Source: Tritrichomonas musculus
Lineage: Eukaryota > Parabasalia > Tritrichomonadida > Tritrichomonadidae
Length of the DNA: 64,000 nucleotides
Assembly: GCA_039105265.1 (NCBI GenBank)
Contig: JAPFFF010000017.1
Location: forward strand, 186,001-250,000
Direction of reading: 5' to 3'
The position numbers and the translations under genes are program-made. How positions within the stretch are numbered: the stretch's first letter is position 1; every line of letters starts with the position of its first letter. Shown here in pieces: positions 3,951 through 59,370 of this stretch. The notes under the pieces are model-generated. The model did not search any database. It had not been told where the DNA came from and was given only the letters and a program-made list of their open reading frames with translations.

Positions 3951-4719
3951 AATTTATTTTTTTTTTTGGCTTTATTAGATAAAAATTATTGCAAAAAATT
4001 TGTGAGAAAAAAAAAATTTGTCATTTGTATGGACAGAGAAAATGAAGCATAACTTTTTCAAAAGTTTAGATTATAAATTTTAGCATCTTTTGATATTTTT
4101 ACATAATTTTACCTAGACTTACAATTAAAAGGAAAGGATCGGTAAAAATTTTGAAACATAAATAACAAGAAGATTAACTTTTGAAATATTAATAATACCT
4201 TCATTTATATTAAAATTAATTGAATCTTGAGTCCCAAATAAAAGTTGAGCATCTTTAGACGGTGGTGCTCTGTATATAATGCAAATTCCTTCTACAAATT
4301 ATGGCATATTTGTTCAGTATAATAAATTCATTTGAAGTTTGTTACATAAGTTCTCTTGTGCAACATAAGCATATCGCTTGTAGTAAATGAACATCTTAAT
4401 CTACACGAAGAAGCATTTTGAACTAAGAAAGTAATTGCCTTTCCTGAGCTACTCAAAAATTTTTGTAATAAAATAAAATAAAAGAAAAAAAAACTGCTTT
4501 GGTTGTCTTTATACCTGTTTAACTTGTGGCTGACCTTGGTTATCAATCATTTTCCAGATTAAAAACGGTTATAATTTTAACAGTCTGACTTTATTTGAGG
4601 TCAAACGGTCAGTTTTCACCGATAAATAAAAATCAAAAGTTTAAATAAAATGAATTTTTTTTTAATAATTTGATCTCTAAAAAAAAAAATCAAAAGTCGA
4701 AATAAAAATCATATTTATT
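3951..4719. other. Intergenic, with a dispersed repeat copy
   Basis: No convincing gene. A 72-codon minus ORF at 4328-4546 has no recognisable features. A frame around 4150-4280 (minus) reads like protein (YRAPPSKDAQLLFGTQDSIN) but has no start and is short, so it may be a relic. Positions 4083-4162 match the 28028-28118 hairpin repeat. A GAAAAAGTT motif on the minus strand near 4050-4065 lies about 100 bp upstream of the decayed kinase-Sel1 gene and may be its old promoter. Confidence 0.4.
4083..4162 (+). repeat. Dispersed 80-bp repeat, copy 1
   Basis: Aligns by eye over about 80 bp with 28028-28118 in the same orientation. Shared blocks include ATTTTTACATAATTTT, GACTTA, AAAAGGAA and GGATCGGTAA. 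This copy has lost most of the terminal inverted symmetry seen in the second copy. Confidence 0.7.
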
Positions 4720-11556: not shown

Positions 11557-12645
11557 TCAAATTAATAAAACTTTTGTTTGATTTACATCTATATTTTTAT
11601 TTTCATTCAAAAACTTGTCAACCAAATCAAAATAATCATATTTGCATAAATTAAAAAACAATGAATCATTAATTAATTTTTCATCGATAAAATTGAAATT
11701 ATAATATTTCAAGCTTTGAAAGAGATAACTTTTTCTATTCAATTCTTTATAATACTTTTGAATAATATAATTTGTTAATTCAACATGATGACATTTAATT
11801 GATTCCCAAAGAACGCCTTTAAATGACTTTTTAGGTAGATTTACCTCATGATCGCCAAGTATTTTAATAATATCCAAATTGTTACTATGAATTGCGTACA
11901 ACCACAAAGATGAAGTCAATTCAACACCTTTTTCAATCAAACAATTGATTATTTTTTTTGATCCATAAAAAAATGCATATTCAATTAACGATGACTGATT
12001 TGTAATTAAAAGTGGATTGGTCTCAACGATCGATATTTCAGGGATATAATTAAAACTTAAATTTCGTTCATTAACGTACGAAACAAATTCATCAATTTTA
12101 TCTTCAATTATTAAATCAACTATTGTATAAAAACCTTCCCCAATTCTTCTATATTTTTCATATTCTTCAGGCATTTTGTACATTAGCGAATCTACGTAAT
12201 CATCATTGACAAATGGACGAATTTCGGTTAAAAAATATTCTGGATAATTCAATTTTGAATATTTGTTAGTTTTTATTATCGAAACAATCGTCTCGTTAAC
12301 AATTAATATTCGTTCATCAAAAAGGAATAAAAGGATTCGTTTGTTCTTCCTAAAAATGTTGAAAATTGTTAAATTTGAGAAAAAAATTTGCATTTCATTG
12401 CGAAGATCTCTCAAAATTTGAAATATTTTTGGGAAAAAACTGGGGAAACGGTGGTGGTGATTTGATATAACAGATATTAAATGAAGTAATGATTTAAGTT
12501 CATGTTTTTTTCTTCGAATATTAAGATCATCTAATAATTTATTAAAATTTGCATAGTTTGAACCAGAAACATCTTCTCCTTCAATATATGCTAGAAGAGT
12601 GTTTTGAATATTCTTCATTTTAGCTATATATTGATCAATTTCCAT
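11557..12645 (-). CDS. DUF3447-type ankyrin protein, N-terminal coding block
   Basis: The open frame encodes 362 aa. Residues 1-130 are a helical region shared with the gene at 56452 (for example the ISNNHHRxPxFF signature and FxxNKRILLFL). Residues about 150-350 carry irregular ankyrin-like repeats, including SLIEYAFFYGSKKIINCLIEKG and HSNNLDIIKILGDHEVNL (each within one repeat), followed by the conserved CHHVELTNYI and LCKYDYFDLVDKFL segments. The last credible residues are about NIDVNQTK (near 11590); the tail VLLI is spacer. The ATG at 12645 is the first in frame and matches the homologue's start. No membrane segment is visible. Likely a cytoplasmic protein-interaction module. It is the head of the cassette array below it on the same strand. 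Confidence 0.85.
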   Translation of the reverse strand: MEIDQYIAKMKNIQNTLLAYIEGEDVSGSNYANFNKLLDDLNIRRKKHELKSLLHLISVISNHHHRFPSFFPKIFQILRDLRNEMQIFFSNLTIFNIFRKNKRILLFLFDERILIVNETIVSIIKTNKYSKLNYPEYFLTEIRPFVNDDYVDSLMYKMPEEYEKYRRIGEGFYTIVDLIIEDKIDEFVSYVNERNLSFNYIPEISIVETNPLLITNQSSLIEYAFFYGSKKIINCLIEKGVELTSSLWLYAIHSNNLDIIKILGDHEVNLPKKSFKGVLWESIKCHHVELTNYIIQKYYKELNRKSYLFQSLKYYNFNFIDEKLINDSLFFNLCKYDYFDLVDKFLNENKNIDVNQTKVLLI

Positions 12646-14036: not shown

Positions 14037-15068
14037 ATTCGAATAATATTTTTATATCTTTTGTTTCTCATTGAGCAGCAAATAATGGTTATTGATGAAT
14101 ATATAGCTAAAAAGATTATGATGACAGACAAATACATAATATCCAAATATCCACAGTTTTTTCAGCCTGAAATTCAACCATTCATCAATGAAAAATTGTT
14201 CACGAAATACGATCCGAAAGATTCAGATAAAAAGTTAAGGAAAGAATTGGTTGAAGAGATAAAGAAAGAATTGCCCGAAGATTTTTATGATAAACGAAAA
14301 GAAGGCGAAAATGACAGCCAAATCAGTGAATTGATTCGAAAGGACATGATCACAGAATTTATTGCATACATTACTCGAAATGATGTTTCAATTAACGCAA
14401 CAATTCAACCTTCAATTTATGAAACAAACTCTTTTTTACTTACAAAACAGGAAAGATCAAATATTTTTACAAATCAAAATTTGACATTGATTGAATATGC
14501 CGCTTTTTTTGGTTCAATTCAAATATTTAACTACTTGCAACTTGAAGGCGTTGAATTAACGCCATCGTTGTGGATTTTGGCTATTCATGGCCATAATTCA
14601 GAAATGATTCACTTTCTCGAAGACAATCATGTTGAATTGGAGGATAAGTCATACAGAAGAGTTTTTTATGAAGCAATCAAATGCCATCACAATGACATCG
14701 CAAATTACTTAATAAACAACTTTTTACAAAATGATGAAAAAAATTCACAGAATAAAATCAATCAATGCTTCCAATATCATAATTTTGCCTTTTTGAAAAA
14801 TGAATCGATTAAAAAATCATCATTTTATAACTTGTGCAAGTATGATTATTGCGTACTTGTTGATAAACTTTTGAAAGACAAAGTTATACATGTAAACAAA
14901 AAAAAAAATTTTTTTCAATATTTAATTAATATAATTTCAATTGATATTTATTTAATTATGTTGAAATCATATATTTCAATGAAATTAAAAATCATATCTT
15001 TCAATAAAATTCAAAATCATATCTTTCAATTCCATTCAAAATCATATCTTTCAATAGAATTCAAAATC
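14037..15068 (+). pseudogene. 5'-truncated DUF3447-type ankyrin gene copy
   Basis: The frame opens after a TGA at 14034-14036; the first ATG is at 14085 (MVIDEYIAKK). Homology to the ankyrin genes at 12645 and 56452 begins around RIIFLYLLFLIEQQ, so about 110 N-terminal residues are missing. Conserved landmarks are QFFQPEIQPFIN, LIEYAAFFGSIQIF, IKCHHNDIANYLI and LCKYDYCVLVDKLL. Coding ends near 14900 (HVNKKK). Then come tandem spacer repeats, and at 15066 the first bases of a cassette (AGAACG) are cut off by unrelated GC-richer sequence. No further cassettes follow. A shortened protein from ATG 14085 is possible, but truncation at both ends favours a pseudogene. Confidence 0.7.
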
Positions 15069-15072
15069 ATAG
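14955..15072 (+). repeat. Tandem spacer repeat, about 27 bp unit
   Basis: Four to five near-identical units with the core AATCATATCTTTCAAT followed by AAAATTCA. This is the cleanest example of the minisatellite that separates ankyrin cassettes elsewhere in the window. Confidence 0.8.
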
Positions 15073-15469
15073 AACGACGTTCGGCTGGCGCCGAATTTTA
15101 GTAGTAGCCTTAAGGCATCAAAGATCAAAATATATTTTTTCCAGATTTTTCGTGCATCCCTAGAGGGCTCTGAAGCCGAAATGTTATGTGTTCTGACTTT
15201 TTGCTCTTTCAATTTTGAATACTCGATGTGAAAAATAAAAAAAAGTGAACATTTTTCCGATCATGATGAAAATTTGTAGAAATTTTTTTTTAAAAAATTT
15301 AATTTATTAATATAATATTATAAACAAATATTATATAAAATTGCAAATTTAAATTTTATATAAAATTAAAAATTAATAGATATAACTTCGAGATACGAGC
15401 AATACAAATGTAAATTTTAAAAAGTGAGTTGATGTACCTATATCTATAATATCAATAGTTGAAAAGGTT
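15069..15469. other. GC-richer hairpin cluster and AT-rich remainder
   Basis: 15069-15200 differs sharply in composition from its surroundings. It holds several short inverted repeats in a row: TTCGGC-tggc-GCCGAA, GCCTTAAGGC, CCCTAGAGGG and GGCT-ctga-AGCC. It begins exactly where an ankyrin cassette should continue. No ORF or known RNA was recognised. 15215-15469 is AT-rich with nothing recognisable. Confidence 0.5.
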
Positions 15470-36220: not shown

Positions 36221-37549
36221 TTAATGATTGAAACCGTTTTTCTTTCGAAGATTTGCTACTCTGGCTTTATTTTTTGATTCCCTCACCATCGCGATGTGCT
36301 CTTGAGTAATATTTGCTAATAATATCTCCCTATATGGGTAAATATCGGCATAAAGCTTATTAAAGCAACGATATCGTGATCTGTCGATTTTGATAGGGAG
36401 CATTCCAGTTGTAGCAGAAATATCTTCGTAAATAGTGAAGAATCGTTTTTTTGATACATGGAAGCCAAACATTTTGTCAATATCTTTTTTGAGTTGCTGG
36501 CCTTGTACATTTGGAGTAAATTTTTTCCTAAATGGTGCTTGAGGGAGCTTGGAAACTTGATATCCTGATCCCTCATTAGCCATCTGCTGTACAGTAAGCG
36601 AGCTTGGGCCACTCCTCAGTTTGTCGTGAGGAAAATGGCTCATATTATTCTGGTTTGATGCTTGAGTTGGTAAATTAGAATTATGCGTGTGAATATTTAC
36701 ATTAACAGGTTCGGGTTGTTGATTTGGAACAAAGTGATGACTTGGAATGATATCATTATCAGATGGAGCAAAATTGGGGTATTGGCTTCTTTCAACAAAT
36801 TGAGATTCCGTCGGGCTTAATGCGAGAGATAAATCGTCAAATTGGCCACTGTCAGTAAATTGGGATTCCCTTGGACTTAATGTGGGAGATAAATCTCCAA
36901 ATTGGCCACTGTCAGTAAACTTGGATTCCCTTGGACTTAATGTGGGAGATAAATCTCCAAATTGGCCACTGTCAGTAAACTGGGATTCCCTTGGACTTAA
37001 TGTGGGAGATAAATCTCCAAATTGGCCACTGTCAGTAAATTGGGATTCCCTTGGACTTAATGTGGGAGATAAATCTCCAAATTGGCCACTGTCAGTAAAC
37101 TGGGATTCCCTTGGACTTAATGTGGGAGATAAATCTCCAAATTGGCCACTGTCAGTAAACTGGGATTCCCTTGGACTTAATGTGGGAGATAAATCTCCAA
37201 ATTGGCCACTGTCAGTAAATTGGGATTCCCTTGGACTTAATGTGGGAGATAAATCTCCAAATTGGCCACTGTCAGTAAACTGGGATTCCCTTGGACTTAA
37301 TGTGGGAGATAAATCGCCAAATTGGCCACTGTCAGTAAACTGGGATTCCCTTGGACTTAATGTGGGAGATAAATCGCCAAATTGGCCACTGTCAGTAAAC
37401 TGGGATCCCCTTTGGCTTAATGTGGGAGAGAAATTGAGACTACGACTATGGGTAGTTAAATTAGCAATTCCTGTGAATTGTATTTGACTAAGGATATCAG
37501 TGCTTTCTCCCAATTCAATATCCGAAGTCAAGGGTGAACAATCATTCAT
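36221..37549 (-). CDS. Protein with 20-residue SP-rich tandem repeats
   Basis: 442 aa. Residues about 1-40 are a unique N-terminus. About 40-255 contain roughly 11 copies of a 20-aa unit (SPTLSPRESQFTDSGQFGD), 10 of them nearly identical at DNA level. A Pro/His/Asn-rich linker follows, then a basic C-terminal region (about 345-442) with HVSKKRFFTIYEDISATTG, RSRYRCFNKLYADIYPY and KNKARVANLRKK. The repeats carry two Ser-Pro sites each, suggesting a heavily phosphorylated flexible tail. The C-terminal part may be a nucleic-acid or protein-binding domain, but I do not recognise it. Base composition is clearly higher in GC than the surroundings. Confidence 0.8.
   Translation of the reverse strand: MNDCSPLTSDIELGESTDILSQIQFTGIANLTTHSRSLNFSPTLSQRGSQFTDSGQFGDLSPTLSPRESQFTDSGQFGDLSPTLSPRESQFTDSGQFGDLSPTLSPRESQFTDSGQFGDLSPTLSPRESQFTDSGQFGDLSPTLSPRESQFTDSGQFGDLSPTLSPRESQFTDSGQFGDLSPTLSPRESQFTDSGQFGDLSPTLSPRESKFTDSGQFGDLSPTLSPRESQFTDSGQFDDLSLALSPTESQFVERSQYPNFAPSDNDIIPSHHFVPNQQPEPVNVNIHTHNSNLPTQASNQNNMSHFPHDKLRSGPSSLTVQQMANEGSGYQVSKLPQAPFRKKFTPNVQGQQLKKDIDKMFGFHVSKKRFFTIYEDISATTGMLPIKIDRSRYRCFNKLYADIYPYREILLANITQEHIAMVRESKNKARVANLRKKNGFNH
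36838..37437. repeat. 60-bp tandem repeat, about 10 copies
   Basis: Ten consecutive 60-bp units differ by only one to a few substitutions. A diverged eleventh unit precedes them (36778-36837), and the last unit is altered. Near-identity indicates recent expansion or active homogenisation. The complementary strand is also open for 201 codons because the period is a multiple of three. Confidence 0.95.
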
Positions 37550-41219: not shown

Positions 41220-41228
41220 GATTTCTAT
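41220..41228 (+). repeat. Target-site duplication, left copy (GATTTCTAT)
   Basis: Nine bases identical to 50636-50644. They immediately abut the terminal GGGATAG of the left arm of the foldback-like element. Confidence 0.9.
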
Positions 41229-42311
41229 GGGATAGTATCACTTTTAAAAACTTTTTTCACTTAAAGTATCACTTTTTGAGAGAGAAAAAAAAATCAGTAA
41301 CACTAATTTGCTTTTAAAAAAATATTCAGTAACACTTTTCCTCTGAAAAACATATCACTCTAAATTAAAAAAATGTTAAGTGCTGCAGCTTTGGTAGTAA
41401 GGAAACTTCAAAAAAAAATATATTGATTAGCATCAGACAAAGATTATTTCTGTGCAAGCTCGCCTCCAAACAAGGTTTTTATTTGACATATCAAATTACA
41501 ATTATCCAACACATCTTCAAAAAATGCTTATAAATTAGTGGTTATTATAGACAATCGTTTTTGTTTTTTATGTATTTAATCCTAGACGCGAATCTCTGTG
41601 TTTTCAAATCAGTGATTAATATCGAATAATCAGATTTCAGACTCCCACACTCAGATACGATTCCATATCTCTTTAAATATTATTCTCCATCGTTTTTTAC
41701 TTACGGTATATGTATTAGATGTTACATATACTAGTTTAAAAATATTGAATATTTCAATAATATTCAATAAAAAATGTAATAAATAAAAATGTAATTGCAA
41801 TAAAATTATTCTTTATAAAATGTTAATTTCAATTATGCTATTTTTATTTCTTTTTCTCTTTTTTTAAAGGAGAAATTAAAGTTTTTTGTTCCAAAAAATT
41901 ATAAACGTATTTTTTACGAATTTGTTAAAATGTAAACGTGCAACATTATTACAAATGTATCAATAAATGAATAAATATTTTTTAAATGCCAATATCCAAC
42001 TAATTGCTATTCTGTTTATTGTATTTCATCAAAATATTGCAATTTTAAAGTTTTTTTGATTTAAATATGTGGTTCAGATTATAATTTGAATTGTCTATGC
42101 CTAAAATTAGTTTATTTTACCTAATAAAATGCTTTATTACTACAATATTCAATTTTTTCAATAAATTTTAGGAGTTTTATAAAAATATCATATTGATATA
42201 TTAAAGATTCATAAAAAAGAAAAGTGATAAGGAAAATGAAATATATTGTGTGATCAAATTTAACAAGGTGAAAATGAAGAGAAATAAAAATAATGATTAT
42301 GAATAATGAAA

Positions 42312-44690
42312 TGATGGTGGAAAAAAATGATGTAATTTGCAAATTTATTATTATATTTGAGTAATATTTACAAATGAATCATTTTATTTGCACAAAAATT
42401 AAATATATTTGGAAAGAATAAAAAAATGATTATGGCAAAGAAGAAGAAGATGATGATGATGATGACAGAAAAGAAGAAGATGAAGAAGATGAAGAAGATG
42501 AAGATGACAGAGAAGAAGAAGAAGAAAATGATGAAGATGATGACATAAAAAAAGAAGAAGATGATGAAGATGATGATGACAGAGAAGAAGAAGATGATGA
42601 TGAAGATGATGATGACATAAAAGAAGGAGAAGATGATGACAGAGAAGAAGAAGAAATTGATGAAGAAGATGATGATGACAGAGAAGAAGAAGAAGAAAAT
42701 GATGATGATGATGACAGAGAAGAAGAAGAAATTGATGAAGAAGAAGATGATGATGACAGAGAAGAAGAAGAAGATGATGAAGATGATGATGACAGAGAAG
42801 AAGAAGAAGAAAATGATGATGATGATGACAGAGAAGAAGAAGAAATTGATGAATAAGATGATGATGATGACAGAGAAGAAGAAGAAATTGAAGAAGAAGA
42901 TGATGACATAGAAGAAGAAGAAATTGATGAAGAAGATGATGATGACAGAGAAGAAGAAGAAGAAAATGATGATGATGATGACAGAGAAGAAGAAGAAGAA
43001 AATGATGGTGGAAAAAAATGATGTAATTTGCAAATTTATTATTATATTTGAGTAATATTTACAAATGAATCATTTTATTTGCACAAAAATTAAATATATT
43101 TGGAAAGAATAAAAAAATGATTATGGCAAAGAAGAAGAAGAAGAAGATGATGATGATGATGACAGAAAAGAAGAAGATGAAGAAGATGAAGAAGACGAAG
43201 ATGACAGAGAAGAAGAAGAAGAAAATGATGAAGATGATGACATAAAAAAAGAAGAAGAAGATGAAGATGATGATGACAGAGAAGAAGAAGATGATGATGA
43301 AGATGATGATGACATAAAAGAAGGAGAAGATGATGACAGAGAAGAAGAAGAAATTGATGAAGAAGATGATGATGACAGAGAAGAAGAAGAAGAAAATGAT
43401 GATGATGATGACAGAGAAGAAGAAGAAATTGATGAAGAAGAAGATGATGATGACAGAGAAGAAGAAGATGATGATGAAGATGATGATGACAGAGAAGAAG
43501 AAGAAATTGATGAAGAAGATGATGATGACAGAGAAGAAGAAGAAGAAAATGATGATGATGATGACAGAGAAGAAGAAGAAGAAAATGATGGTGGAAAAAA
43601 ATGATGTAATTTGCAAATTTATTATTATATTTGAGTAATATTTACAAATGAATCATTTTATTTGCACAAAAATTAAATATATTTGGAAAGAATAAAAAAA
43701 TGATTATGGCAAAGAAGAAGAAGAAGATGATGATGATGACAGAAAAGAAGAAGAAGAAAATGATGAAGAAGAAGAAGATGATGATGACAGAGAAGAAGAA
43801 GAAATTGATGAAGAAGATGATGATGACAGAGAAGAAGATGAAGAAGATGATGGTGACAGAGAAGAAGAAGAAGATGATGATGACAGAAAAGAAGAAGAAA
43901 TTGATGAAGAAGATGATGATGACAGAGAAGAAGAAGAAGAAAATGATGAAGAAGATGATGATGACAGAGAAGAAGAAGAAATTGATGAAGAAGATGATGA
44001 TGACAGAGAAGAAGAAGAAGAAAATGATGAAGAAGATGATGATGACAGAGAAGAAGAAGAAATTGATGAAGAAGATGATGATGACAGAGAAGAAGAAGAA
44101 GAAAATGATGATGATGATGACAGAGAAGAAGAAGAAATTGATGAAGAAGATGATGATGACAGAGAAGAAGAAGAAATTGATGAAGAAGATGAAGATGATG
44201 ACAAAAAAAAGAAGAAGAAAATGATGATGATGACAGAGAAGAAGAAGAAGAAGATGATGATGACAGAGAAGAAGAAGAAGATGATGATGACAGAGAAGAA
44301 GAAGAAGATGATGATGACAGAGAAGAAGAAGATGATGATGCTGATGACAGAAAAGAAGAAGAAGATGATGATGATGACAGAAAAGAAGAAGAAGATGATG
44401 ATGACAGAAAAGAAGAAGAAGATGATGATGAAGATGATGATGAAGATGATGACAGAAAAGAAGAAGAAGAAGATGATGATGACAGAGAAGAAGAAGAAAT
44501 TGATGAAGAAGATGAAGATGATGACAGAAAAGAAGAAGAAGAAAATGATGATGACAGAAAAGAGAAGAAAATGATGATGATGATGACAGAAAAGAGAAGA
44601 AAATGATGAAGATGATGACAGAAAAGAAGAAGAAGAAGATGATGATGACAGAGAAGAAGAAGAAAATGATGATGATGATGGCAAATAAGA
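42312..44690 (+). repeat. Left-arm GAA/GAT triplet arrays with three copies of a 129-bp spacer unit
   Basis: Three arrays (about 42441-43002, 43132-43586 and 43715-44690) consist of GAAGAA(n), GATGAT(n) and GACAGA blocks. Each is preceded by the same 129-bp AT-rich unit (42312-42440, 43003-43131, 43587-43714). Every frame is open over long distances because of the triplet period: Ser/Phe on the minus strand; Lys/Met or Glu/Asp on the plus strand. One plus frame reads as an acidic Asp/Glu tail (for example REEEEIDEEDDDD) but has no credible start, so I treat all frames as non-coding. Confidence 0.85.
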
Positions 44691-45327
44691 TAATGGAGAA
44701 GATAAAGATAAAGATAAATATGTATTAAATGAGGATAATAATAATAATAAAGAATAATGATAAGATGATGATAAATTGGACGATAATAGTGATTATACAA
44801 TTATTTATACTACAATTTGAATGTGATTATGAGCGTTTGAGATTGATAACCGAGTTATTCGAGATAATGATCTGCAATTGTGTATTTTATTCAAACTAAG
44901 TATATAACTCTTATGGGACATATTGATTTAAATCGTCTGGCTTGTATTACTTAAATGCAGAACATGTGGATTTATAGAAGGTAATATTATTTTTGTGGAA
45001 ATGTGATGTGAAAAATCATGACTGGAAATGTAATAACTAATGTTTTATCATCATATTTTAAATAGATATAGTCATTCTTTAAGTTAATGGCCATTTTAAG
45101 TTGATAATAATTAATATTAACATATTTTTTTTTTTTTTTTTTTTTTAAAAAAAAATTCAAAATGACCAGTATCAATCAAAATGACAGTATATTTTCTTTT
45201 AAAAAGATCAAATGCAGAAAAATGGTCATTGAGCATTTAAAGCCTAGAAATATAGTAAAGCATAGTATTATATTGATGCATATGTTTCATATTTATCCCA
45301 CAAATGAATAAAAATCTTAATTTTTTT

Positions 45328-46441
45328 GTATTTTTTTTTTTTTTTACTCATCAAATATTTCAATAGATATAGAAAAAATAAAAACTTCTATACAAAAAAA
45401 ATCATAATATATCTTTTTCAACTCCTTAAATTCAAGTAGTTGGCAAATTTTTGAAAATATGTTTTTTAACAATATATTGCCAATTTCTTAAGTAGTTCCA
45501 ATTAAATTTGAGCGAATTGTAAGTAAATTGTAACTCTCTTGATCTTGATAGTTTTTTTGATGTGAACATGTTCATATGTTAGTTACTTCACACCTTTCAA
45601 CTCCCTGATATATTTAATTCTATTTTATCTCTTGATTATTTGACTTTGCTCATTGAAATAACATAATCATTTAAACTTCTTGACTAGACATGTTGCAGAA
45701 ACAATTTAATTTAAAGCTTTTCCAAAATTTCTAGGGCAAAAAACCACTACAAGACTCATATAATATTATTCACTAGAGTTTTTCTTGAGTCGTTTCCATG
45801 ATAATCATGTGTTTCAGTGGTTATGATTAGCAATTAGCTTGATATATGATGATATTACAATAGTTATCGTTATTTCTGATACTCTAAGTTCGTGGTTTAC
45901 ATTAGGCCAATGATATAAATTAAGAATAACTGCCGATTTCACTATCATTCATACTTTCTGTTGTTTTTAACTTTTGCTTAAACAATTCTTCATATAGCTT
46001 GGGCTTTTTATGTTGATTATTGGTTGCCATAGATTAGATATCCCAATAGATTTCCCTGTATAATAACAATCTAAATCTAACTTTCTACTTTTTCCTAACA
46101 TAATAATTCTACTAATACTTATCATTGATTCTCATATATATATAATGTACCCCATTATTGGGATAAATTAAAGTAATAACTGTATAGACTGATTTGAATC
46201 TTTATCGTCATCTTCATATAAGTTAGCATACATGCTTGTCCTTCTAGATTTAATTTTGAATATTTTTAAATCATAAAAATAATAAAAAAATGCTCTAATA
46301 TGATTAAGCTAACTGAAAAATCTTTTTTTTACTAAAAATCTTTGATATCATAACTTTTAAAAAGAGGTAAGGCGTTGGATTTCATGGAATAGCGCAAATC
46401 AGGTTAATTGAATATGCTTTTTGGATAATACAATGTTTTAG
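45328..46441. other. Unique central spacer of the foldback-like element
   Basis: About 1.1 kb, present once, between the inner ends of the arms. No ORF above 60 codons and no recognisable transposase fragment. Includes poly-T near 45330-45345. Confidence 0.7.
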
Positions 46442-47084
46442 AAAAAAATTAAGATTTTTATTCATTTGTGGGATAAATATGAAACATATGCATCAATATA
46501 ATACTATGCTTTACTATATTTCTAGGCTTTAAATGCTCAATGACCATTTTTCTGCATTTGATCTTTTTAAAAGAAAATATACTGTCATTTTGATTGATAC
46601 TGGTCATTTTGAATTTTTTTTTAAAAAAAAAAAAAAAAAAAAAAATATGTTAATATTAATTATTATCAACTTAAAATGGCCATTAACTTAAAGAATGACT
46701 ATATCTATTTAAAATATGATGATAAAACATTAGTTATTACATTTCCAGTCATGATTTTTCACATCACATTTCCACAAAAATAATATTACCTTCTATAAAT
46801 CCACATGTTCTGCATTTAAGTAATACAAGCCAGACGATTTAAATCAATATGTCCCATAAGAGTTATATACTTAGTTTGAATAAAATACACAATTGCAGAT
46901 CATTATCTCGAATAACTCGGTTATCAATCTCAAACGCTCATAATCACATTCAAATTGTAGTATAAATAATTGTATAATCACTATTATCGTCCAATTTATC
47001 ATCATCTTATCATTATTCTTTATTATTATTATTATCCTCATTTAATACATATTTATCTTTATCTTTATCTTCTCCATTATCTTA

Positions 47085-49560
47085 TTTGCCATCATCATCA
47101 TCATTTTCTTCTTCTTCTCTGTCATCATCATCTTCTTCTTCTTCTTCTCTGTCATCATCATCATCTTCTTCTTCTTTTCTGCCATCATCTTCATCATCTT
47201 CTTTTTCTTCTCTGTCATCATCATCATCTTCTTCTTCTTCATCAATTTCTTCTTTTTCTCTGTCATCATTTTCTTCTTCTTCTCTGTCATCATCATCATC
47301 GTTTTCTTCTTCTTCTTCTCTGTCATCATCATCGTTTTCTTCTTCTTCTTTTCTGTCATCATCATCATCATTTTCTTCTTCTTCTTCTCTGTCATCATCA
47401 TCATCTTCTTCTTCTTCTTTTCTGTCATCATCATCATCATCATCATCTTCTTCTTCTTTTCTGTCATCATCATCATCATCATCATCTTCTTCTTCTTCTT
47501 TTCTGTCATCATCATCATCATCATCTTCTTCTTCTTCTTCTTCTTCTTCTTTTCTGTCACCATCATCTTCTTCATCTTCTTCTCTGTCATCATCATCTTC
47601 TTCTTCTTCTTCTCTGTCATCATCATCATCTTCTTCTTCTTTTCTGCCATCATCTTCATCATCTTCTTTTTCTTCTCTGTCATCATCATCATCATCTTCT
47701 TCTTCATCAATTTCTTCTTTTTCTCTGTCATCATTTTCTTCTTCTTCTCTGTCATCATCATCATCGTTTTCTTCTTCTTCTTCTCTGTCATCATCATCGT
47801 TTTCTTCTTCTTCTTTTCTGTCATCATCATCATCATTTTCTTCTTCTTCTTCTCTGTCATCATCATCATCTTCTTCTTCTTCTTTTCTGTCATCATCATC
47901 ATCATCATCATCTTCTTCTTCTTCTTCTTTTCTGTCATCATCATCATCATCATCTTCTTCTTCTTCTTTTCTGTCATCATCATCATCATCTTCTTCTTCT
48001 TCTTCTTCTTCTTCTTCTTTTCTGTCACCATCATCTTCTTCATCTTCTTCTCTGTCATCATCATCTTCTTCATCAATTTCTTCTTCTTCTCTGTCATCAT
48101 CATCTTCTTCTTCTTCTTCTCTGTCATCATCATCATCTTCTTCTTCTTTTCTGCCATCATCTTCATCATCTTCTTTTTCTTCTCTGTCATCATCATCATC
48201 TTCTTCTTCTTCATCAATTTCTTCTTTTTCTCTGTCATCATTTTCTTCTTCTTCTCTGTCATCATCATCATCGTTTTCTTCTTCTTCTTCTCTGTCATCA
48301 TCATCGTTTTCTTCTTCTTCTTCTCTGTCATCATCATCGTTTTCTTCTTCTTCTTTTCTGTCATCATCATCATCATTTTCTTCTTCTTCTTCTCTGTCAC
48401 CATCATCTTCTTCATCTTCTTCTCTGTCATCATCATCATCATCTTCTTCTTCTTTTCTGTCATCATCATCATCATCATCTTCTTCTTCTTCTTTTCTGTC
48501 ATCATCATCATCATCATCTTCTTCTTCTTCTTCTTTTCTGTCATCATCATCATCATCATCTTCTTCTTCTTCTTCTTTTCTGTCATCATCATCTTCTTCA
48601 TCTTCTTCATCTTCTTCTCTGTCATCATCATCTTCTTCATCAATTTCTTCTTCTTCTCTGTCATCATCATCTTCTTCTTCTTCATCATTTTCTTCTTCTT
48701 CTTTTCTGTCATCATCATCTTCTTCTTCTTCTTCTTTGCCATAATCATTTTTTTATTCTTTCCAAATATATTTAATTTTTGTGCAAATAAAATGATTCAT
48801 TTGTAAATATTACTCAAATATAATAATAAATTTGCAAATTACATCATTTTTTTCCACCATCATTTTCTTCTTCTTCTTCTCTGTCATCATCATCATCATT
48901 TTCTTCTTCTTCTTCTCTGTCATCATCATCTTCTTCATCAATTTCTTCTTCTTCTATGTCATCATCTTCTTCTTCAATTTCTTCTTCTTCTCTGTCATCA
49001 TCATCATCTTATTCATCAATTTCTTCTTCTTCTCTGTCATCATCATCATCATTTTCTTCTTCTTCTTCTCTGTCATCATCATCTTCATCATCTTCTTCTT
49101 CTTCTCTGTCATCATCATCTTCTTCTTCATCAATTTCTTCTTCTTCTCTGTCATCATCATCATCATTTTCTTCTTCTTCTTCTCTGTCATCATCATCTTC
49201 TTCATCAATTTCTTCTTCTTCTCTGTCATCATCTTCTCCTTCTTTTATGTCATCATCATCTTCATCATCATCTTCTTCTTCTCTGTCATCATCATCTTCA
49301 TCATCTTCTTCTTTTTTTATGTCATCATCTTCATCATTTTCTTCTTCTTCTTCTCTGTCATCTTCATCTTCTTCATCTTCTTCATCTTCTTCTTTTCTGT
49401 CATCATCATCATCATCTTCTTCTTCTTTGCCATAATCATTTTTTTATTCTTTCCAAATATATTTAATTTTTGTGCAAATAAAATGATTCATTTGTAAATA
49501 TTACTCAAATATAATAATAAATTTGCAAATTACATCATTTTTTTCCACCATCATTTCATT
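47085..49560 (-). repeat. Right-arm triplet arrays with two copies of the 129-bp spacer unit
   Basis: Mirror of the left-arm arrays. One array of about 1.65 kb (47085-48735) contains recent internal duplications of several hundred bases, and one of about 0.56 kb (48870-49430) matches the outermost left array. There are only two 129-bp units (about 48736-48864 and 49427-49555). The right arm thus lacks the middle left-arm block but has a longer inner array. Confidence 0.85.
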
Positions 49561-50635
49561 ATTCATAATCATTATTTTTATTTCTCTTCATTTTCACCTT
49601 GTTAAATTTGATCACACAATATATTTCATTTTCCTTATCACTTTTCTTTTTTATGAATCTTTAATATATCAATATGATATTTTTATAAAACTCCTAAAAT
49701 TTATTGAAAAAATTGAATATTGTAGTAATAAAGCATTTTATTAGGTAAAATAAACTAATTTTAGGCATAGACAATTCAAATTATAATCTGAACCACATAT
49801 TTAAATCAAAAAAACTTTAAAATTGCAATATTTTGATGAAATACAATAAACAGAATAGCAATTAGTTGGATATTGGCATTTAAAAAATATTTATTCATTT
49901 ATTGATACATTTGTAATAATGTTGCACGTTTACATTTTAACAAATTCGTAAAAAATACGTTTATAATTTTTTGGAACAAAAAACTTTAATTTCTCCTTTA
50001 AAAAAAGAGAAAAAGAAATAAAAATAGCATAATTGAAATTAACATTTTATAAAGAATAATTTTATTGCAATTACATTTTTATTTATTACATTTTTTATTG
50101 AATATTATTGAAATATTCAATATTTTTAAACTAGTATATGTAACATCTAATACATATACCGTAAGTAAAAACGATGGAGAATAATATTTAAAGAGATATG
50201 GAATCGTATCTGAGTGTGGGAGTCTGAAATCTGATTATTCGATATTAATCACTGATTTGAAAACACAGAGATTTGCGTCTAGGATTAAATACATAAAAAA
50301 CAAAAACGATTGTCTATAATAACCACTAATTTATAAGCATTTTTTGAAGATGTGTTGGATAATTGTAATTTGATATGTCAAATAAAAACCTTGTTTGGAG
50401 GCGAGCTTGCACAGAAATAATCTTTGTCTGATGCCAATCAATATATTTTTTTTTGAAGTTTCCTTACTACCAAAGCTGCAGCACTTAACATTTTTTTAAT
50501 TTAGAGTGATATGTTTTTCAGAGGAAAAGTGTTACTGAATATTTTTTTAAAAGCAAATTAGTGTTACTGATTTTTTTTTCTCTCTCAAAAAGTGATACTT
50601 TAAGTGAAAAAAGTTTTTAAAAGTGATACTATCCC

Positions 50636-50644
50636 GATTTCTAT
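50636..50644 (+). repeat. Target-site duplication, right copy (GATTTCTAT)
   Basis: Immediately follows the terminal TATCCC of the right arm and is identical to 41220-41228. An A35 tract begins at 50649. Confidence 0.9.
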
Positions 50645-50645
50645 A

Positions 50646-50685
<40 letters not shown>

Positions 50686-56451: not shown

Positions 56452-57600
56452 ATGAATCTTCAAAGTTTGCTAAATCAAAACAAAACAAATTACAGAAATC
56501 TACTAGATTTCCTTGAAGAAAATACAGATGAAATATATTCCCAAAGTATAAATACTTTTTTTGATGATTTGAGGATTAGAAATGATATACACGATATCAG
56601 ATTATTTTTGAAAACTCTATTAAAAATATCTAATAATCATCACCGAAATCCAAATTTTTTCAATAAGGTTGAGCAAATTTTGGTTTTTCTGAAAAACAAT
56701 ATCCATGAATTTTCGAATTCCGAAATATTCAATATTTTCCATAGTAACAAAAGAATTCTTCTATTTCTCATTAAAGAAGAAATGTTAACAATTGATGAGC
56801 ACATTTTTAATAAAATAATGACAACTAAAAAATATGTAGATGCTAAATTTCCTCAATATTTTTTACCAGAAATCAAACAGTTTCTCAATGAGAGCTGGAT
56901 TTCGGAATTTGAGTATAAATTCAAAGGTTGGAGATTAATTAAAGAATTAAAAATAGAAATACCAGAAACTTTTGAAGAAAATCGCATTAAAGGAGAAAAT
57001 GAGAGTTATATATGCCAATTAATTCGAAATGACTCAATAATAGAATTTATTAAATATGTCAATCAAAATAATTATTCTTTGAAATCAAGAATCAAACCAT
57101 CAATTTATGAAACAAATTTATTTTTAATTAAACAACAAATTTTCGTTCATAAAAATGATGATAAATTTATTGAAGAGTCAGAAAATTTGCCGACTTTAAT
57201 TGAATATGCAGCTTTCTATGGATCAATTCAAATTTTTCAATACTTAAGATTGAATGGAGTTTATATAGGAACAAATATAGAGTTTTATGCAATACATTCA
57301 AATAATCCTGAATTTATTCACATTCTCGAAGCAAATCACGTTCAATTCAATGAATATTGCTTTTATGAATCAATTAAATGTCATCACAATGATATTGCAA
57401 ATTACATTAAAGAGAACTATTTGAATGAGGGATGCGAAAACTCATATGATTTCATTTATTCTGTTTTTGAAAACTATAATTTTGTTTTCATTGAAAACAA
57501 TTGTTTTAATCAAGATTGCTTTTATCTTCTTTCTAGGTATGATTATTACCAATTTGTTAAGTTTTTAATGAATGATGAAAGAATTGATATAAATAGAAAA
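56452..57600 (+). CDS. DUF3447-type ankyrin protein, N-terminal coding block
   Basis: The open frame runs to a TAA at 57622-57624 (390 codons), but homology ends at about 57600 (RIDINRKYI). It is collinear with the block at 12645-11557: an N-terminal helical domain with ISNNHHRNPNFF and SNKRILLFLIKEE, then FPQYFLPEIKQF, SIYETNLFLI, LIEYAAFYGSIQIFQYL, IKCHHNDIANYI and LSRYDYYQFVKFLMNDERID. The block ends inside an ankyrin unit and is followed on the same strand by six isolated cassettes. If the spacers are not removed the protein would be this 390-aa form. Confidence 0.88.
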
Positions 57601-59370
57601 TATATTTTAAAATGTGAAAATTAATGAAATTTAATTGCCATATATTGCAATGACATTTAAAATTAAATTTGCCAATTGGATTCAAAATAAAATACTTTTT
57701 AACGGAATCAAAAATTATATTTCTGAATAAAATTTTATTAAATTATTATTTAATAAAAGTGCTCTATATTCTGCAGTTGGGAAACAAAATATTGAAATCA
57801 TCAAACTTTTATTAACGAATTATAAGCTTGATGTTAACATTTTGAATATTTAAAAATGATAATATTTTTGAAATTCAAAATCAAATATTTCAGTGATATT
57901 CAAGTTAAAATGTTCCAATGAAATTCCAAATAGATTTTTTTAATCTTATTAAATATCAAATAATTCAATTATATTGGCATTTAATATTTTAATAATATTC
58001 AAAATCTATTATTTTAAAACAGTTAGAATTCAATTATTTTGAATTTAAATGAAATTATTATTTTTCTTTCATGAAACAGCATTATTTCTAGCAGTCAAGG
58101 AAGGATGCATTGAAATAATCAAAATTCTACTGGCGAATGAAAAACTTGATGTCAATAAATTGAATATTTTTAATATATTTGTATTTTTAAAATTCACAAT
58201 ACTATATTTCAATGTAATTCGAATTCAATCATTACAATAATATTTTTAACCAGACTTTTCAATGAAATTCATCATAAAATATTTCAATTTTATTCATTGT
58301 GGACTATTTAAATGAAATTTATTTTATTTCTTTATTTTACAGCATTATTTTTAGCAGTTAAGAAAAACAATATTGACATCATAAAACTTTTATTAACAAA
58401 TGACAAGCTCGATATCAATAAATTTAGTGTTTATAAATGATTTTTATTTTTAAAATTCAAAATAAAATCTTCTAATGTAGTTTAAATTAAATATTACAAT
58501 GAAATTCCAAATCAAATGTTTCCATTCAATTTTTAAAAAAATATTTGTATGACATTCATATTTCAACAGTTCAATATAATTTAAAATCAGTTATCAAAAT
58601 TGTATTTAAAATATAATGTTTTGATACAATTCAAACTCAACATTATAATACAATTTGATTCAAGTCTTTCAATAAAATTCATAAATAAATATTTCAATTT
58701 GATTTTATATTAAAAAATTCAATTCAATTCAAATTGAAATTTTTGAATGAAATTTATTTTTTTATTTCATCAAACAGCATTATATGGAGCCATTGAAGAA
58801 AACAATATTGAAATAGTTAAACTTTTATTATCAAATGAAAAACTTAATATTAATATTTTAAACGTTTTATATTGTTTTATTAATAAAGTTAATATGAAAA
58901 TAATTGAACATAATTCAAGGTTATATATTTTAAATATGTTTGAAATGCGAGGTTTAATGAAATTCAAATTCAAATGTTTCAATAGAATTTCAATTTTTAT
59001 AATAAAATGGAATTGGAATCTAATATTTCAATGATGTTCAACAACAAATACTTTTTTACATTGTTTGAATATAATTGAATTTTCATGAAATTTAAAAAAA
59101 TAAAAGTTTTATCATATTTTATTATTATTTTTAAATAGAAAAACTTCATTACACCTTGCAGTTGAGATAGGAAACATTGGCATTATTAAACTTTTATTGA
59201 ATCACAAATGTATTAATACTAGAATTAGGAATGATATTTATAATAGAATTGAATCAAATTTCAAATATTATTTTGAATGATTCTTCTATAATTTATGCAG
59301 AAGACCTGTTGATTGTGCTGGTAGTCTTAAAGTAAAAAAATTATTCAAGGGCAGTTTATTTTATCTCTAA
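57601..59370 (+). other. Five ankyrin cassettes plus terminal unit, with minisatellite spacers
   Basis: Cassettes lie at about 57752-57850 (SALYSAVGKQNIEIIKLLL), 58065-58165 (ETALFLAVKEGCIEIIKILL), 58335-58425 (TALFLAVKKNNIDIIKLLL), 58768-58862 (QTALYGAIEENNIEIVKLLL) and 59142-59225 (KTSLHLAVEIGNIGIIKLLL). The terminal unit RRPVDCAGSLKVKKLF starts at 59298 and has its TAA at about 59369. Spacers of about 70-350 bp consist of the degenerate ATGAAATTCAAAATCAAAT-type unit in the same orientation as in the 4720-12645 locus. Several cassettes are preceded by ATGAAATT, then T-rich DNA, then TTTCAT, giving in-frame MKFIFLFHQT and MKLLFFFHET. The frames at 58049 and 58747 are such cassettes. Confidence 0.7.

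Follow-up and report, generated by a model that had tools for sequence, protein, structure and literature searches.

The window analysed here, a stretch of 64,000 nucleotides from the parabasalid Tritrichomonas musculus (contig C17:186001-250000; the genome searched is an assembly of 193.4 Mb in 746 contigs), contains an element with very long, internally repetitive inverted arms around a short spacer, which is an architecture of the foldback type (Table 1). This element is very probably a non-autonomous Mutator-like element (MULE), belonging to a family that we call A, which would have been moved in trans by a transposase of the type encoded by a related copy on contig C16. A sequence-only reading of the window had already proposed an element combining MULE and foldback traits, and this proposal is supported by the ends of the C16 copy, by target-site duplications and by the architecture of the arms. 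That family A is a real transposon family is well supported; its transposition mechanism and its movement we infer from the anatomy of the copies, which are named here after their contigs (C16, C13, C78 and so on), the element of the window being the C17 copy.

Ends, target sites and transposase-bearing relatives

The terminal 472 bp of the element has at least 40 matches in the genome (40 of 72 candidates scored), and at least 12 two-ended copies of the 1.2-kb outer arm, the window element among them, stand at different genomic sites. The outer arms of the C16 element (580049-591459) and of the C13 element are about 95.5% identical to those of the window element, and both copies possess triplet arrays but not the window-type spacer. 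In the outermost 160 bp, a single base differs between the window arm and the C16 arm. C16 holds one uninterrupted frame of 1053 codons, encoding 1028 amino acids from the first methionine, and with its MULE-like product it is the transposase-bearing relative with the same ends that the sequence-only reading had predicted. The same gene is present in C13 but is broken in two by a nested insertion, and a degenerate copy with five stops lies at C5:2051507. The C16 copy is embedded in a long 22-bp tandem repeat (L016:582-1500; L015:1985-2777). The insertion that interrupts the transposase gene of C13 is palindromic and about 20 kb long (L032:7495-9567 to L034:4678-6750); each of its arms encodes a 690-amino-acid helicase of the DEAD/ResIII type (PF00270, E=1.9e-13), with one residue differing between the arms, and it is possibly virus-like.

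The Pfam MULE domain PF10551 was matched by the C16 protein (E=0.018) and by its relatives P0002 (1.7e-4) and P0003 (1.4e-5), in all cases below the curated cut-off, and P0003 also gave a sub-threshold match to SWIM (E=9.6e-4). No family A protein passes a Pfam cut-off by itself; a relative from family D passes that of PF00872, Transposase_mut (22.7 versus 21 bits). In an alignment of five rows, D692, D752, E846, C771/H774, C941, C943, C953 and H955 are invariant, and known MULE motifs suggest a reading of D692, D752 and E846 as DDE catalytic residues and of C941, C943, C953 and H955 as those of a SWIM domain. The C13 transposase fragment had no match among PDB sequences up to E=1; in NCBIfam, the C16 and family E proteins matched nothing, and family D gave only matches far below the cut-offs.

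The duplication immediately outside the ends of the window element is GATTTCTAT, and this, like the coordinates given for the arms, spacer and termini in the sequence-only reading, was confirmed in the sequence. Among the 12 copies with both ends that were tested (C51 and C58 being one-sided there), eight have an exact 9-bp duplication, namely the window copy, C78, C15, C57, C16, C63, C2 and C5, while C11 has an exact 10-bp duplication and C1 a match at 8 of 9 positions. Mismatched pairings of left and right 9-mers (132 in all) agreed at 7 of 9 positions at most, with a mean of 3.43. Two of the exact cases, C16 and C15 (TAAAAAAAA), are less telling. The same termini, the transposase-bearing member and duplications that are mostly of 9 bp together support the assignment to a MULE family.

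We also compared 26 flanks all-against-all (20 of 1500 bp and six of 100 bp) and found no two elements with homology continuing past their ends; outside the tandem repeat of C16 there were five short matches (29-132 bp), none of which links two elements on the same side at an equal distance. A local mirrored artefact is thereby excluded, and mirrored assembly more generally, against which the sequence-only reading had argued, is hardly conceivable, even though the arms are near-perfect palindromes and the published assembly used PacBio reads with a mean of 8.9 kb, shorter than the element, with Oxford Nanopore Technologies reads above 10 kb for scaffolding (PMC11978803, in the part considered here). 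The same structure stands at 12 sites, and these differ in their flanks, in their target duplications, in the lengths of their arrays and in the private variants of their arms.

Relatives of the transposase fall into further families: B (59% identical, at least nine copies), C (48%, at least six), D (47%, at least six) and E (at least two), these counts coming from a listing in which 45 of 3587 candidates were scored. The ends of A, B and C begin with GGGA (B also with GGGT at one end), TCAC-type motifs lie in the first 130 bp of all three, with a spacing of about 30 bp in A and C, and a core box, AAATGTTAAGYGCTGCA, is common to them about 150 bp inside the ends; a shorter form of this box occurs exactly twice in the window, once per arm. 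An initiator (Inr) promoter reading of the TCAC motifs, suggested by a resemblance, was set aside. The core 17-mer has 92 matches in the genome, with none for a reversed control, and 72 of the 92 form 36 inverted pairs whose partners are separated by less than 35 kb; in 1000 strand shuffles the number of pairs averaged 10.3 and never exceeded 18. Four lengths (7.95, 10.05, 10.48 and 13.85 kb) account for 19 of the 23 pairs that do not belong to family A; the 13 family A pairs vary from 8.1 to 17.6 kb, with 30.6 kb in C13, because of their arrays and insertions. The terminal inverted repeats (TIRs) measure 1209 bp plus extensions in A, about 1044 bp in B and at least 843 bp in C, and no GAA/GAT array was found in the scanned stretches of B (L044, L045, L048) and C (L062, L063), C having been scanned in part. 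Exact 9-bp duplications flank a family C element on C1 (TATTTTTCT) and a family B element at C14 (CAATTATAA); in family B, the right end of C34 is truncated, and the left piece examined for C1 missed the end. The pairs of 10.05 kb (family H, five pairs) and 7.95 kb (family I, three pairs) showed no transposase-like open reading frame (ORF) in one middle stretch each, of 2.5 and 2.0 kb, and these stretches hold nearly the same two small ORFs. A family C copy at C1:5775101-5779600 is about 5.8 kb longer than its sisters and has 120-bp tandem repeats (L062:211-722, 1096-1368 and 4066-4458), which are visibly higher in G+C than their surroundings and lie in opposite orientations at the two sides; this looks like another nested element.

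It is possible to accept a MULE-type element and to suppose that it is mobilised today by the transposase of sister family B or C and not by the single intact family A copy. The larger numbers of transposase copies listed for these two families and the features which they have in common with the window element (GGG at the ends, the TCAC motifs, the core box) fit such a view, but B and C are strongly different from the window element in the outermost 160 bp, where C16 is nearly the same, and their matches to its outer arm are limited to 74% over 177 bp (B) and 72% over 641 bp (C), which makes it unlikely. An element of true Foldback type, with no relation to Mutator and a 9-bp duplication arising by coincidence, would likewise have long, internally repetitive arms, and no transposase match was found inside the window-type copies among those listed (45 of 3587 candidates scored); the ends, however, are the same as those of a copy encoding a MULE-like transposase, and families B and C make 9-bp duplications too, so this explanation is very improbable. 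In the favoured explanation, the 1028-amino-acid transposase of C16 or a close relative would bind the TAWCACT motifs, the core box or both in the outer TIR, would cut at both ends and would insert the element in trans with a 9-bp stagger.

Arms, arrays and the origin of the mirrored copies

Table 1. Parts of the family A element, with positions in the window
Feature	Position	Strand	Remark
Left target-site duplication copy	41220..41228	.	9 bp, GATTTCTAT
Left outer arm = family TIR, 1209 bp	41229..42437	+	common to 12 further two-ended copies, including transposase-bearing C16 (95.5%)
Subterminal TAWCACT motif cluster, ~30 bp spacing	41229..41360	+	putative transposase-binding sites
TIR core box AAATGTTAAGTGCTGCA, left	41371..41387	+	conserved across families A, B, C
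Left GAA/GAT triplet array, 2249 bp	42438..44686	+	contains two additional copies of the 129-bp unit
Left inner arm block, 641 bp	44687..45327	+	single in C16 and C13, mirrored in the window element
Spacer, 1.1 kb	45328..46441	.	
Right inner arm block	46442..47082	-	
Right triplet array, 2344 bp	47083..49426	-	
Right outer arm (TIR)	49427..50635	-	
TIR core box, right end	50477..50493	-	
Right target-site duplication copy	50636..50644	.	GATTTCTAT

The sequence-only reading had described the arms of the window element as near-identical. This holds for the outer parts, which differ by two substitutions and one or two one-base indels, and for the inner blocks, whose sole difference is one T within a T-run, but not for the middle, because the arrays carry most of the differences: they have 42% of their 60-mers in common, and 233 of the 248 substitutions in the arm alignment lie inside them (of the other 15, two are in the outer arm and 13 at or past 45328, i.e. 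beyond the arm). The extra 129-bp unit reported on the left is there, with three copies in the left arm and two in the right.

Within an element, the two arms have been homogenised. In 13 of 13 elements the outer arms of the two sides differ by 0-2 substitutions (for C58 minus the first 84 bp of the left arm), although left outer arms of different elements differ by as many as 18 inside the window-type group and by 47-57 from C16 and C13. Near-identity of the arms is consequently no clock for a recent jump, which corrects the sequence-only reading of a recently moved element. The substitutions that set C63, C2 and C5 apart from C78 (nine, 11 and six, respectively) are present on both arms, which differ from each other by 0, 1 and 0, and C57 has a GCG variant of the core box in both arms; such private variants on both arms of one element mean that copying between arms is needed. 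Arm identity could also be acquired at birth, every jump starting from a homogenised source, without continuing conversion in place, and the mutually identical outer left arms of C78, C71, C15 and C11 speak for this, but the private differences just described speak against it. Some copying between arms is thus required, though possibly acting only during transposition, and we consider birth from a homogenised source doubtful but by no means negligible.

As assembled, the shortest array is the left one of C16 (768 bp) and the longest the right one of C78 (about 10.7 kb); in a period-3 measure the array stretches of C78 and C5 are triplet repeat throughout. When the arrays of 12 elements were compared by shared 60-mers (for the right array of C5, 5200 of about 6570 bp), sharing within the element exceeded that with every other element in eight: the window copy, C71, C57, C58, C63, C2, C5 and C16. 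Coding in the arrays was considered and rejected: 14 arrays from seven elements gave no frame-specific signal, and no protein is claimed. Ten of these arrays have two sense frames with nine or fewer stops and a third filled with stops, as expected of any triplet repeat; the window right array has one low-stop frame, and the window left array and both arrays of C57 have none.

The inner block is an inverted pair in 12 window-type copies (C17, C57, C51, C2, C1, C71, C63, C15, C11, C58, C5 and C78) and single in C16 and C13, with single partial copies at C39:1041793 and C2:5626593 among the matches listed (40 of 70 candidates scored). Direct comparison also gave one inner block in C16 and one in the C13 pieces compared (L032, L034 and L017; not L033), located 3' of the transposase gene and adjacent to the left array. 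We take the outer 1.2 kb as the family TIR, with the array and the inner 0.64 kb as additions to it; the inner block seems to have been mirrored from one end. Most simply, the foldback copies would have had their right end replaced by a copy of the left. A possible route would be the replacement of the right end of an autonomous element by its left TIR, array and inner block, as could happen in gap repair or by template switching once an element has excised; later copying from arm to arm would keep the unique parts identical, and slippage and unequal exchange would remodel the arrays.

Several observations weigh against the overall account of a family A MULE moved in trans and mirrored from one end. 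No transcript, excision or new insertion was observed, and the C16 protein's own MULE domain lies below the Pfam cut-off. Among the 12 copies tested, no duplication was found at C71 and C13, and that of C16 is weak evidence: it sits in the 22-bp tandem repeat, the 9-mer is part of the repeat units and was counted 10 times in the 1500 bp to the left and seven times to the right, and the two flanks are 99% alike over 367 bp. Even so, random breakpoints in the repeat match at 9 of 9 positions in only 3685 of 900000 cases. Apart from C14, family B elements have an 8/9 match (C43), no duplication (C9) or a truncated right end (C7). The arrays of C1 are only marginally more alike within the element (0.04 versus 0.02), and those of C11, C15 and C78 are closer to another element's than to each other. 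The inner block of C16 is only about 80-86% identical to that of the window, so that C16 is a relative and not the direct parent of the window element. Finally, family F (C2:6087489/6089760; piece C2:6084800-6092400), a more distant foldback with its own GAA/GAT arrays, has an inner block mirrored at about 69%, and C16 may therefore have lost an ancestral mirroring, or mirroring may have arisen more than once. Alongside family F, a second inverted pair was seen near C2:1567620.

The spacer (45328-46441) has no ORF of 150 amino acids. Its long matches all lie inside these elements, apart from a dispersed piece of 110-160 bp at 71-75% (42 matches listed; 40 of 73 candidates scored), and since no gene was found among them, capture of a host gene was rejected. 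The spacer stands in either orientation relative to the contig, and with near-identical arms this reports the direction of insertion only, so that inversion between copies was likewise set aside.

Some further sequences were noted beside these elements. At C6:5588500-5593500 an Ulp1/C48 protease ORF (L061:1099-2127; PF02902, E=4.7e-17) lies beside triplet-rich sequence and a 77% inner-block match, of which a 162-bp piece has at least four further matching places in the genome (40 of 70 candidates scored). MULEs carrying Ulp1 are known from plants, and this locus recalls them. In the window itself, a run of 35 A (50649-50683) begins 4 bp past the right target duplication, and about 10.6 near-perfect 60-bp tandem repeats (36797-37434, 96% matches) lie within a 442-amino-acid ORF at 36221-37549.

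The ankyrin/DUF3447-type domain of the transposase

In the C16 protein the transposase is fused to an ankyrin/DUF3447 domain of host type. A profile search matched 156 proteins, and of the 120 listed, 116 cover only 26-36% of the query, 12 of these being named 'DUF3447 domain-containing'. Frames of about 1000 amino acids that match the whole query are P0002, P0003, P0005 and P0008, and the fused domain is present in relatives that are 41-58% identical; P0001 and P0004 are without it. Among the scanned proteins, Pfam DUF3447 was matched only in P0012, below threshold. In a quick tree of the domain with 125 rows, built without P0006 and without the B and C proteins of this genome, the five fused transposases (C16, P0002, P0003, P0005 and P0008) form one branch with a support of 98 in the Shimodaira-Hasegawa-like approximate likelihood ratio test (SH-aLRT), and this single clade suggests one old capture of the domain. 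The separate upstream ORF of family E is placed elsewhere in the tree, at weakly resolved forks. By eye, the MULE frames of D and E start with an ankyrin-like tail and a KRGRP/KPGRP stretch; Pfam gave no ankyrin match in these frames, and Ank_3 above the cut-off in the upstream ORF of E. Three ORFs of the window (11557-12645, 14085-15101 and 56452-57624) resemble host genes of the ankyrin/DUF3447 type, the superfamily of the N-terminal domain of the transposase; the first and third were placed in the domain tree and the second was judged by eye.

No report of an ankyrin-bearing MULE transposase was found, by title and abstract, among the open-access papers searched. We tentatively propose, as an idea that may well prove wrong, that Tritrichomonas has a distinct MULE lineage in which the transposase captured once, at its N terminus, an ankyrin/DUF3447-type domain of a huge host gene family. 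This domain would be under selection and would work in transposition, for example as a tether to host chromatin, as a dimer module or as a regulatory module; foldback partners would arise when one end of an autonomous element gives way to a mirrored copy of the opposite end, and from then on the two arms would undergo concerted evolution, with no such constraint on the triplet arrays.

Comparison with known systems

The likeness of the window family to foldback elements such as Drosophila FB, FARE or Tm1 is one of architecture, and the statements on published systems below refer to the portions of the cited papers used here. The Mutator/Foldback element Tm1 of Meloidogyne resembles the window family in its 9-bp duplications, in composite TIRs that are extended by repeats, in numbers that vary and are unequal at the two ends, and in being mostly non-autonomous with one putative autonomous element carrying a MULE domain (Phantom-like) (PMC3169594). 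It differs in size (0.17-2.6 kb), in repeats that are mostly of 14 bp, in a mean arm identity of 93.15%, and in a transposase of 496 amino acids with a FLYWCH-MULE arrangement, for which no ankyrin domain is mentioned in the portion used (PMC3169594). Rehavkus is also MULE-like and has a minisatellite beside a TIR, but carries a PHD finger and is found in insects and annelids; in the MULE set of the same paper TIRs are 14-500 bp long, and the paper nowhere has the word ankyrin (PMC6446971). Plant MULEs with multiple or extended TIRs are similar in that TIRs are duplicated and acquired sequence can join the extended TIRs, but their gain of TIRs is mostly in tandem and not mirrored (PMC3310237).

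The window family, with 9-bp duplications and no P-type domain among the Pfam matches of the scanned proteins, does not belong with Galileo. Target duplications of Galileo and the P superfamily are of 7 bp. The longest Galileo copy of Drosophila willistoni nevertheless has comparable arms of 4.2 and 4.7 kb, with unequal tandem repeats and no transposase, and segments from outside the TIRs have been recruited into them; the transposase of Galileo is of the P superfamily (PMC4168063).

For TvMULE1-4, which are parabasalid MULEs of Trichomonas vaginalis, three table rows give TIRs of 20-31 bp and lengths of 2.1-3.0 kb, and duplications in the rows considered are of 10-14 bp; their authors hypothesise MULEs without TIRs, and "ankyrin" is absent from the main text (PMC2725143). 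The window family, which has kilobase TIRs and 9-bp duplications, falls outside the TvMULEs and documents a transposase fused to a domain of a large host gene family. The birth of foldback elements is unsettled, and here one genome holds both mirrored members and members with a transposase, all having the same ends; with many similar copies bearing target duplications in that genome, the mirroring of ends and the copying between arms become directly testable. The family also shows that parabasalid MULEs can have TIRs of kilobase length, unlike the TvMULEs (PMC2725143).

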